Positions 34,933 through 37,049 of a DNA stretch of 37,049 bases are shown one piece after another. The stretch's first letter is position 1; each line of letters opens with the position of its first letter. The translations under genes were made by a program, and so were the position numbers. The notes below the pieces were generated by a model. It did not search any database, was not told where the DNA came from, and saw nothing but the letters and a program-made list of their open reading frames with translations. This DNA is from an uncultured Eubacteriales bacterium (lineage in GTDB: Bacteria > Bacillota > Clostridia > Christensenellales > Aristaeellaceae), in assembly GCA_902785105.1 (NCBI GenBank), contig CACZXF010000019.1:1-37049 (forward strand), written 5' to 3'.

Positions 34933-36285
34933 TCAGCTGTTGTAGATCTCGTCGTACTTGGCCTGGGTGTCGGCGGCCACGGTGGCGGGATCGATCTCGC
35001 CGTTCAGCATGGCCTGCATCTCGGTGTTGAGCACGGACCAGATGGCGGAATCCAGATAGGAGTCATAGATCTCGCAGGTGTCGGTGTCAACATAGGACCA
35101 GTTGTAGAAATCCTGGGTCTGTTGATCGAACTTGCTCAGGTCCACATCGCCGGCGCTGGTCAGCCCGCCCAAGGCGTAGGTCTCCGCCACGTAGGAGGAG
35201 AAGGCGGGGCCGGTCAGCTCATAGCACAGGTCGATGGCGGCAGCCAGCTTGGCGGGATCGTCGGCCAGCTTGGGGTTGATGGCCATGGCGTAGCCCAGGC
35301 CGATGTTTTGGCTGTTGGGATACAGCTCGGCGTCCGCGGGCTGGGGCAGCACGGCGATGCCCATGTTGTTGTACTTCTCTTCGTTGCTGTCCTTCAGCAC
35401 CTGCCAGATGTAGCTCCAGTCCCAGTTGCCGCCGATGAAGGCCGCGGCGTCGCCGGAGATGAAGTACTCGCGGGCGTCCTCGTTGGTTACGGCGTTGAAG
35501 TCCGCGTTGAAGATCTTGGTGTCCTTGAACAGACGCTGGGTCTCGGTCAGGCACTTCACGAAGGCTTCGTCAGTGAACTTGGCGCCGGTGTTGGCGATCA
35601 GGCTGGCGAACCATTCGGGACCGGTGTAGCGGTTGCCCAGGGTGGACACGAAGTCGGAGTTCAGCTGCCACTGGCCGCCGTTGCCGAAGGCGATGGTGTC
35701 GATGTTCTCGGCGGAGAACTTCTCGGCAGCCTCTTTGACCTCAGCCCAGGTGGCGGGGAACTTGTCATAGCCCTTCTCAGCCCACATTGCCTTGTCGTAG
35801 ATCACGATGGTGCAGGTGCCGCCGGTCAGCGCGGGCAGGCCGTAGATCTTGCCTTCGGGGGTGGTGAAGGGGGTGAAATAGGCCTGATTGTAAGAATCAT
35901 AATAGGGGGAAGCCTTGATGATGTCGGTCATGTCCATCACCAGGTTCTGGCTGGCCCAGGCGATGGTGTTCATGCCCTGGAGCAGGAACACGTCGGGCAG
36001 GTTGTCCGCCGCCGCCAGGGTGGCGACCTGGGTCTTGTACTCGGCGTTGGCCAGCACATTCTCGGTCAGGTTGATGTCGGGATGAGCTTCCTTCCAGGCC
36101 GCGATGGTGGTGCGGAAGCCGTCGGAGCCACCGTTGCCTTCGGATTCCTCAGAGGTGGAGAAGTGCATGAGCACCAAGTCGCCCTTGTACTCCAAGTCCG
36201 TCGCCGCAACAGGAGTCGCGGCAAACGCCACAGCGCTCATGGCAAGCACAGCCAGAGCCAGAACCAGGCAAATGAGCTTCTTCAT
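34933..36285 (-). CDS. Extracellular sugar-binding protein without lipobox
   Basis: Family 1 solute-binding protein of the second importer, 450 residues. The signal peptide (residues 1-22, ending AVAFA) has a type I cleavage pattern and no cysteine, so the protein is not predicted to be lipid-anchored. That is uncommon in Firmicutes. The mature domain shows the usual start ([17 protein letters not shown]), the middle [20 protein letters not shown] that is typical of CUT1 binding proteins, and the sugar-contact region [16 protein letters not shown]. The neighbours (two permeases and an alpha-xylosidase) suggest a xyloglucan-derived ligand. AGGAGGT precedes the ATG, and a strong promoter lies about 85 bases upstream. 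Confidence 0.9.
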
Positions 36286-36364
36286 AACAGTGTAACCTCC
36301 TTAGCTAATTGGCAGAGCCAGTTCTCAACCCATGTAAAACCGGTAATTCATGGATTGTAATATT

Positions 36365-36393
36365 ATTTTATATTTTTTGGTTATTTTTGTCAA
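36365..36393 (-). promoter_or_regulatory. Strong promoter of the second sugar operon
   Basis: On the minus strand a perfect TTGACA (36388-36393) and TAAAAT (36365-36370) are 17 bases apart, in an A/T-rich setting. A leader of about 75 bases precedes the ATG. No clear catabolite-repressor (cre) box was seen. Confidence 0.75.
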
Positions 36394-36512
36394 TACCCAA
36401 CTTGATTTTTGTGCGTAAAAAACAACCACCCGGTTACATCTCAGGGTCAGCTATAAACGGGGATTTGTGGGGGAGCCCCCACGGGCAATTGCTACCGCGC
36501 ATAGGCACCGGT

Positions 36513-36543
36513 CTTTGGGGGCCATAGATCCGAGCCCCCAAAG
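36513..36543. repeat. Element hairpin 1
   Basis: CTTTGGGGGC and GCCCCCAAAG form a perfect 10-bp stem around the 11-nt loop CATAGATCCGA. Confidence 0.85.
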
Positions 36544-36583
36544 CCCTACGTTGCGTTTCTTATATTTCCACGTTCGAGGCGAC

Positions 36584-36618
36584 GACTTTTTGCCCCATAG
36601 ATCCGAGGGCAAAAAGTC
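36584..36618. repeat. Element hairpin 2
   Basis: GACTTTTTGCCC and GGGCAAAAAGTC form a perfect 12-bp stem. The 11-nt loop is again exactly CATAGATCCGA, although the stem is unrelated to that of hairpin 1. Confidence 0.85.
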
Positions 36619-36711
36619 TGCGTACAAAGCCCCTTTCGCAGTTTTTAAGGTCGTGCTTTTTGACCTCAAAAACGTCGCTTACCGGTAACATAATATTAGA
36701 AATGCAACATA

Positions 36712-36747
36712 GGTCCTGGGGGCTCGGACCTATGGTCCCCCAGGACC
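36712..36747. repeat. Element hairpin 3
   Basis: GGTCCTGGGGG and CCCCCAGGACC form a perfect 11-bp stem. The 14-nt loop contains TCGGACCTATG, the reverse complement of the loop motif with one change (CATAGGTCCGA). Confidence 0.85.
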
Positions 36748-36790
36748 GGTCACCTAAACGCGGCAGCAATTGCCTGCGGGTGCAACCCGC

Positions 36791-37000
36791 TAAATTCCAA
36801 TTTAACGAGAACTCTCAGCAGTAACGATATGCTGGTGTTCTTCCTGCTCTACACGCCTCCATAGCGGCCATGCCGCCATCCACAGGGAACTTCCCAATTA
36901 ATTTTTGATCATATAGGATTCGGAGAAATATTTGGGTAATATTATTGTTCGTAAGGAACTGTGCATAAATTATTCATACATTCTGCTTGTCTGAATCCGC
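36791..37000. other. Gene-less flank
   Basis: About 210 bases between the palindromic element and the edge repeat. No domain, ribosome binding site or strong promoter is seen. GGCGGCATGGCCGC (minus strand of 36863-36876) is a short GC-rich palindrome-like stretch and may be chance. Confidence 0.4.
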
Positions 37001-37049
37001 CATCGCTGCGTTGTCGTCGGTCAACGTGCCCCGGCACGCCTCCCTCCTC
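37001..37049. repeat. Second copy of the palindromic repeat, cut by the window edge
   Basis: GGTCAACGT (37019-37027), the hairpin CGTGCC-CC-GGCACG, then ACGCCTCCCT (37036-37045) match the reverse complement of the core of the 30484-30564 element. The hairpin sequence differs. The left flank TCGCTGCGT also aligns with TCGTTGCTT there. The rest lies beyond the window. Confidence 0.65.

Follow-up and report, generated by a model that had tools for sequence, protein, structure and literature searches.

A palindromic MITE-like element that precedes a sugar operon holds two inverted copies of a covarying two-hairpin unit often found behind genes

Results and Discussion

The palindrome and its surroundings

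The window, by which we mean the whole stretch of DNA that was analysed (37,049 bases, contig C19), contains near its right end a large palindrome. The palindrome lies in a gap that precedes a sugar operon comprising an SBP, two ABC permeases and GH31. No ORF of at least 80 aa with an ATG, GTG or TTG start overlaps 36433-36825, as expected from the gene-free gap that the original prediction had placed upstream of this operon, and the longest stop-to-stop frame overlapping 36800-37049 has 98 aa. Between the element and the operon lies a promoter-like site on the - strand (TTGACA-17-TAAAAT, 36393-36365) with 11 of 12 consensus matches, where the shuffled region averages 1.0 such match. No gene end was found to the left of the window copy, and its right flank is cut by the end of the contig; a canonical terminator was not found in 36200-37049.

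According to a repeat search of the window, the inverted-repeat arms lie at 36507-36540 and 36717-36750 with 88% complementarity, and local hairpins at 36510-36546 and 36584-36618. BLAST aligns the element to its reverse complement from 36454 to 36804 at 70%. The predicted folds reach -196.7 kcal/mol on the + strand (z -15.3) and -207.2 kcal/mol on the - strand (z -16.7), with none of 100 shuffles as good in either case. Arms, self-complement match and folds thus confirm the imperfect inverted repeat that had been proposed from inspection. The borders given with it, 36467-36790, correctly mark the two outermost hairpins but not the element itself, which extends to end motifs at 36455 and 36803 and then into a degenerate outer inverted repeat, 36433-36825. 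Each arm is one copy of a unit, at 36465-36554 (+ strand, 90 nt) and 36703-36793 (- strand, 91 nt). The parts of the window copy are the following.

36433..36825, no strand: whole element, a MITE-like palindromic repeat named type A (non-autonomous), 393 bp; from 8 full-length copies and the border repeats
36433..36454, + strand: degenerate outer terminal inverted repeat, left, GTTACATCTCAGGGTCAGCTAT; in the same register as GTAACTRTTCAGTC ends
36804..36825, - strand: degenerate outer terminal inverted repeat, right, - strand start GTTACTGCTGAGAGTTC; from border scoring
36455..36473, + strand: left end motif AAACGGGGATTTGTGGGGG; from the genome-wide motif count
36786..36803, - strand: right end motif AAATTGGAATTTAGCGGG; right-end counterpart in paired elements
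36465..36554, + strand: left arm, unit copy 1, sense on +; 70.3 bits with covariance model R1, which was built from 82 rows that include both arms
36467..36482, + strand: hairpin 1 of unit copy 1, GTGGGGG-AG-CCCCCAC; from the sequence, aligned with the relatives' hairpin 1
36484..36499, + strand: box of unit copy 1, GGCAATTGCTACCGCG (relatives: ..GCTGCCGCG); from the alignment
36510..36546, + strand: hairpin 2 of unit copy 1, loop CATAGATCCGA at 36523-36533; from repeat search, RNAalifold and covariation
36584..36618, + strand: central hairpin, stem 12 bp, same loop (CCATAGATCCGAG); from the repeat search, with a partial R1 match at 36568-36619
36642..36672, no strand: central hairpin TTTTTAAGGTC-loop-GACCTCAAAAA with one mismatch; from the sequence, within the predicted fold
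36703..36793, - strand: right arm, unit copy 2, sense on -; 67.6 bits with R1
36712..36747, - strand: hairpin 2 of unit copy 2, GGTCCTGGGGG / CCCCCAGGACC on the + strand; from the sequence and repeat search
36759..36774, - strand: box of unit copy 2, GGCAATTGCTGCCGCG; from the sequence and alignment
36776..36790, - strand: hairpin 1 of unit copy 2, GCGGG-TGCAA-CCCGC; from the sequence and alignment
36365..36393, - strand: promoter-like site, context outside the element; 11/12 consensus, shuffles 1.0

Copies of the element and their interiors

In the window's own assembly (G000; 131 contigs, 91.9% complete) BLAST finds 69 matches to the element. Eight copies, that of the window included, are full length at 81-100% identity, and many others are partial, at least 12 of these lying at contig ends; among relatives, 10 of 59 have matches, every one of them partial. 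Allowing up to 3 mismatches, the end patterns AAACRGGGATTTGNGGGGG and AAACRGGGATTTGTCGGGG occur at 455 and 580 sites in G000, respectively (overlapping sets), compared to 4 and 0 for the reversed patterns. In 25 of 27 congeners AAACRGGGATTTGTCGGGG has 0-8 sites, with 78 in G001 and 28 in G009. A 381-kb sample of G000, made up of the contigs with known matches, holds 69 candidate paired elements of 48-349 bp, including a few probable chance pairs such as C48:33922-34229.

Could the palindrome be a one-off local inverted duplication, neither functional nor mobile? The window copy considered alone, which has no target duplication, would agree with this, but the eight full-length and many partial copies, together with a unit present in 26 of 28 genus genomes, refute it, and we give it practically no credence. 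The element is short, without coding capacity, dispersed in many copies and bounded by terminal inverted repeats (the inner ends and, in the window copy, an outer repeat that scores beyond the random 99% level). These are features of bacterial MITEs, to which target-site duplications, treated below, also belong. No similar DNA was found in phages and plasmids; viral contigs gave one match.

Behind the same ends, several unrelated palindromic interiors occur. In the G000 sample (e.g. L070, L078, L081) a second interior type spans about 146 bp around CTGTAGGGGCGGCGTTGCGCCGCC, and a third, modular and about 130-270 bp long, is arranged around CACCTCATCCGCCCTCACGGGCACCTTCCCCTCAAGGGGAAGGC; the interior modules seem shuffled from copy to copy. 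G009 carries an end variant of its own, AAATACTGATTTGTCGGGG (at least 18 listed, on many contigs), so the end sequences vary by lineage.

Outer ends and a probable link to IS66

The border outer repeats of the window copy score 12 and 14, compared to a random 99% level of 8. Among 68 sampled elements an outer inverted repeat is recognisable in 18, in addition to the window copy; in the remaining 50 the inner ends are well kept and the outer repeat is not above random, which may mean that the inner ends use another route or that outer ends decay faster than interiors. No target duplication flanks the window copy (ACCACCCG left, GATATGCT right), and when the GAT/ATC inner borders of the sampled elements were compared with shuffles, no duplication directly at them passed the criterion. 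A weak excess is confined to the outer border, with 4 near-matches of 9 bp versus 0.6 in shuffled data.

A search of the collected loci for pairs of GTAACTRTTCAG-type ends returned 25 rows, duplicates and chance pairs above 1 kb included. For GTAACTRTTCAGTC ends, exact 8-bp duplications are seen at 5 of 10 distinct pairs shorter than 250 bp; two of the five are in G000, and one (L194) falls where the sequence is locally repetitive. Another of the five is a MITE with GTAACTGTTCAG ends (L045 / L136:4962-5095); it interrupts hairpin number two of a type-A-like copy in G001 and is flanked by the exact duplication GATTCAAG. The target-site duplications that the original prediction had proposed to look for are therefore present in relatives and sister copies, but absent at the window copy. 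Folding of seven joined empty sites revealed no general hairpin target.

ISDge4, which belongs to the IS66 family (ISBst12 group), has the ends GTGACTACTCAGCA / GTAACTGCTCAGCA and an 8-bp direct repeat, as given in an excerpt of its description (PMC12898284). Measured against ISDge4 as the only reference, and against that excerpt, GTAACTGCTCAG-like ends with an 8-bp duplication are present in sister and relatives' copies, and the window copy has degenerate ends and no duplication. Because its outermost repeats resemble GTAACTRTTCAG ends that bear 8-bp duplications at other sites, like those of ISDge4, the outer layer is best read, on sequence grounds, as a putative IS66/ISBst12-type MITE, of which the window element would be an old copy.

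Relics of IS66 transposases were found in G006 and G018; exact GTAACTRTTCAGTC ends lie outside the matched transposase stretch, at a distance of about 190 nt in the former and 130 nt in the latter. In G000, a draft assembly of 91.9% completeness, no intact partner transposase was found; the only trace is a 73-residue PF03050 (IS66) fragment, which was rejected as the partner, its ends being unrelated to those of the element. G017 contains an IS66-type element (L283:735-2381) with one long open frame and the ends GTTACCATTCACCTA, at which no 8-bp duplication was seen.

A conserved unit of two hairpins

Lone units resembling the arms but without the mobile ends are found, as weak matches, in relatives, some of them directly behind stop codons. 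The unit is about 90 nt long. Hairpin 1 comes first, then a linker with GCTGCCGCG at its end; some 22 nt separate this from the loop of hairpin 2 (13 bp, loop CAYWGATTCMA), and the tail has a sequence around GYGTTT. When 84,980 species genomes were scanned with a pattern, 103 stretches were obtained, 80 of which were examined; 72 of these 80 belong to Clostridia or Clostridiales records, many titled rumen (RUG, which we take to denote rumen samples), sheep, roe deer or rabbit (Lapin). Nine loci were removed by eye as chance matches, eight from other phyla or classes (L131, L134, L140, L148, L152, L158, L166, L170) and one without a stem (L160), which leaves 71 loci with 80 units. The 23 other stretches stand outside the unit alignment, and some of their loci entered the outer-end pair scan.

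In the resulting alignment A1, both-sided changes occur in 12 of 13 base pairs of hairpin 2 and in all 6 of hairpin 1. Double-change cells number 489, compared to 137 ± 11.5 in shuffled alignments (0/500), and 89.8% of cells are paired, falling to at most 44.6% when the columns are slid by 1-3. Hairpin 2 is firm, with 95.2% of cells paired, and hairpin 1 is less certain (77.9%; not called by RNAalifold). One of five covariation measures, the number of pairs with any double change, was uninformative (18 vs. 17.3). Among 39 distinct unit rows of the window's own genome, 97 cells are changed on both sides and still paired, versus 28.7 ± 5.9 shuffled (0/500), in an alignment that was fitted to the structure and so leans in its favour. 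That differences between the arms are offset within the local stems, as the original prediction had noted, is supported by this count; other copies and covariation, by which it had proposed to be judged, are both present. For a pseudoknot, the 3-nt loop of hairpin 1 would have to pair with the linker; the two are complementary in 36 of 72 rows versus 25.3 shuffled, with the largest shuffle at 37, and this alternative pairing is possible as a weak lead.

The stems might also be kept complementary by mutation, through template switching that perfects quasi-palindromes, and not by selection for a fold. They are indeed nearly perfect duplexes, and hairpin 2 has no excess of G-T over A-C cells (7 vs. 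12, p 0.36), so that the covariation by itself does not point to RNA. Against a purely mutational origin, loop, box, spacing and stop-codon position are constant while the stems turn over, the constancy of box and loop in A1 being partly imposed by the search pattern. The model-based alignment, which needs no pattern, keeps the loop in most rows of the genus, with exceptions, and loses it in the rows of the other genus. We consider a mutational origin unlikely.

The covariance model, with up to 150 candidates scored per genome, places the unit in 26 of the 28 genomes of the genus, the window's own included, and in neither G017 nor G027; ten genus genomes hold at least 30-66 matches each under the same scoring. 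At the level of the order, with stricter filters and few candidates, it was found in 3 of 297 genomes from 2 genera. In G032, from a second genus of the family, the layout of a box and two hairpins is seen with a different loop and long GC stems (L260, L262-L265), and one of the units in G032 stands behind a gene that we presume, from the look of its end, to encode RpoC. Tandem arrays of box and hairpin were observed at L101, L122, L147, L156, L164, L169 and L174, with four boxes, each followed by a hairpin, at L147.

Position of the unit behind genes

A long same-strand ORF ends 5-24 nt ahead of the box in 40 of 80 units, compared to 224 of 4000 random places and 6 of 80 units for the opposite strand. 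With gene calls codon-trained on the Pfam-supported genes of the window (two other gene callers were dropped for choosing antisense frames), a same-strand gene precedes the unit in 63 of the 69 placeable cases, where the baseline is 225 of 466 gap sides; the 11 unplaceable units comprise 9 at edges and 2 inside called genes. The stop codon falls between -17 and +3 nt of the nominal unit start in 35 of the 63. Orthologous genes bear the unit across genomes with differing yet complementary stems: a gene ending ..RAVEFAK is followed by it in nine loci (four listed in another frame; some pairs share the stem), and a gene ending GNPGMGGMY, which we take to be groEL, in three. Stems that differ and remain complementary at the same orthologous gene suggest descent in place over fresh insertion.

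A T-rich stretch lies a few nt behind hairpin 2 in 51 of 80 units versus 157 of 2000 random places, a contrast that is overstated because the random places include coding DNA. A strict scan for the canonical intrinsic terminator (a GC-rich hairpin and an immediate T-run) found none among the 80 units. Hairpin-plus-T motifs occur behind 29 of 57 genes with the unit, 51 of 168 without it and 21 of 225 controls, a comparison that decides little, because the hairpin of the unit may itself be counted as such a motif.

Position, strand and T enrichment together lead us to infer that the unit is probably a gene-end signal. It could instead be a site acting at the level of DNA, e.g. a protein-binding or recombination hairpin. 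The missing RNA-type wobble bias, the palindromic DNA of the captured copies and the tandem arrays of box and hairpin would all fit such a site; the strand, mostly fixed to that of the upstream gene (63/69), and the stop codon, often at the unit start, fit a feature of the transcript. A DNA-level role therefore has, in our judgement, a rather small though real chance of being correct.

A riboswitch, leader or other known RNA class is very improbable. Such a class would share the conserved fold and the constant loop and box, but the unit lies mostly behind genes, not before them, and Rfam recognises neither element nor unit: no family reached its gathering score, either in the window or, among relatives, at the unit in 12 loci, and in permissive scans of the element and one relative's unit all scores were far below gathering. 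The original remark that no named element has this layout is consistent with these scans. An FMN riboswitch (L133:2777-2895) and a T-box leader (L155:1500-1722) were seen in relatives' loci, away from the unit and unrelated to it.

Elements and units within one genome

The unit model gives 57 matches in G000, mostly at element-matched places, where it appears as inverted pairs with a weaker central match. Lone units are few; the best (C41:11512) stands directly behind a stop codon; after it come T7 and another hairpin, whose loop is similar. The order at C41:11512-11668, unit then second hairpin, is also found in type A, in its left half, and type A may therefore have arisen by capture of a native stretch of this kind. 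In one relative's locus (L209) a native inverted pair of units exists (1501-1590, + strand, and 1935-2024, - strand), so an inverted pair could have been captured without duplication.

The elements, too, are found near gene ends. Among the sampled G000 elements, 41 of 65 have the 3' end of a gene no more than 30 nt away (four of 69 were left out, three at an edge and one in a called gene), compared to 20.6 for random placement in the same gaps, and the end facing the gene is the right one in 21 cases and the left one in 20. For the full-length type-A copies, a coding stop lies within 17 nt of one end in 6 of 8, and at 91 nt in L008. In the type-A copies L004 and L011, the stop of the neighbouring gene is a TAA formed by a preceding T and the AAAC end of the element.

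Proposed explanation

Taken together, the explanation that we favour, and hold to be somewhat probable, is that the window element is an old MITE of the IS66 family (ISBst12-like) carrying an inverted pair of the genus's gene-end unit. The two alternatives of the original prediction, selection for structure and a transposable origin, would then both apply, at different layers: the outer one is the dispersed MITE-like repeat, the inner one the covarying unit.

How could such an arrangement work? Transcripts would carry the unit as the first part of their 3' UTR, where it would mark the end of the message. Transcription leaving a gene would pass the stop codon and meet the unit in sense, and hairpin 2 with its short T-rich tail may then end the message, as a weak intrinsic-type terminator, or shield its end. 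Arms that point inward would present a sense-oriented gene end to transcription from either side. Because both unit copies point inward from the borders, a gene end would be offered from both sides, so that the element could settle behind genes at little cost. The window copy itself lies upstream of the promoter-like site, and we can only speculate that it at most insulates the sugar operon from read-through.

We further entertain, tentatively and as a less than even prospect, a broader proposal: that the genus has a dedicated, undescribed gene-end signal at the stop codon, a two-hairpin unit whose box and loop are read in trans and which serves transcription end, message-end protection or translation-termination coupling, and which the mobile element has made portable and two-way.

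Comparison with known systems

MITEs and gene-end palindromes are kinds of repeat that are already known. What is new here is a conserved, covarying, often stop-adjacent unit without an Rfam entry, together with its capture, as two inverted copies, by a mobile element; in searches of the open-licence literature we found no description of element or unit. The statements below on published systems refer to excerpts of the papers cited. The element resembles non-autonomous derivatives of the ISBst12 group (ISDge4, PMC12898284) in the GTAACTRTTCAG-type ends and 8-bp duplications of sister and relatives' copies, its shortness, the lack of a long ORF and its many dispersed copies. It differs from them in its interior, the inverted pair of a genus-wide structured unit, and in that G000 has no intact partner transposase. 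With MITEAba12 (PMC6382973) it shares non-autonomy, IS-like terminal repeats for mobilisation and stop codons in all frames; MITEAba12, however, has 113 bp and 9-bp duplications, is tied to ISAba12, and the excerpt describes no captured gene-end unit.

REPs and their RAYTs (PMC3733652) are similar as palindromes of which many lie downstream of coding regions, with frequent dimers and proposed roles in termination or message stability. Could the unit be REP-like, moved by a RAYT (Y1) transposase, its place behind genes reflecting tolerance only? Its palindromic form, tandem and inverted copies and frequent location behind genes recall REPs (PMC3733652, in the excerpt), and 16 of 28 genus genomes have Y1 transposase matches. 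G000, however, has 0 Y1_Tnp matches. REPs are described in that text as 20-40 bp long with a GTAG or CGTC tag, the GTAG type being associated with a Y1 transposase, none of which defines the unit: it has about 90 nt and two hairpins, and neither tag is among its invariant columns. Units at the same ortholog, moreover, vary in the stem and keep complementarity. We regard a REP-like origin as improbable and retain the captured gene-end unit as the preferred explanation.

ERIC, NEMIS, YPAL and other stem-loop families (PMC2267715) are likewise intergenic palindromic repeats able to fold in RNA, and Yersinia ERIC is said there to alter the levels of neighbouring genes. ERIC is one long stem-loop and some other families are adjacent stem-loop pairs; the excerpt describes none of them as copies of a separately conserved unit. 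The uptake-signal terminators of Neisseria and Pasteurellaceae (PMC1852404) are comparable in that a constant motif is repeated in gene-end hairpins across a bacterial group. There, as the excerpt has it, the constant motif forms the stem, whereas the present unit has a variable stem and a constant loop and box.

Should the unit prove to be a gene-end signal, then gut bacteria that are mostly uncultured would share, throughout a genus, a regulatory feature with no entry in Rfam. The box, loop and fixed spacing of the unit make it testable by standard 3'-end mapping. The mobile copies would, on the same condition, be natural insertions of the signal behind genes, and the element an example of a transposable element that cuts the cost to its host by bringing its own gene end.
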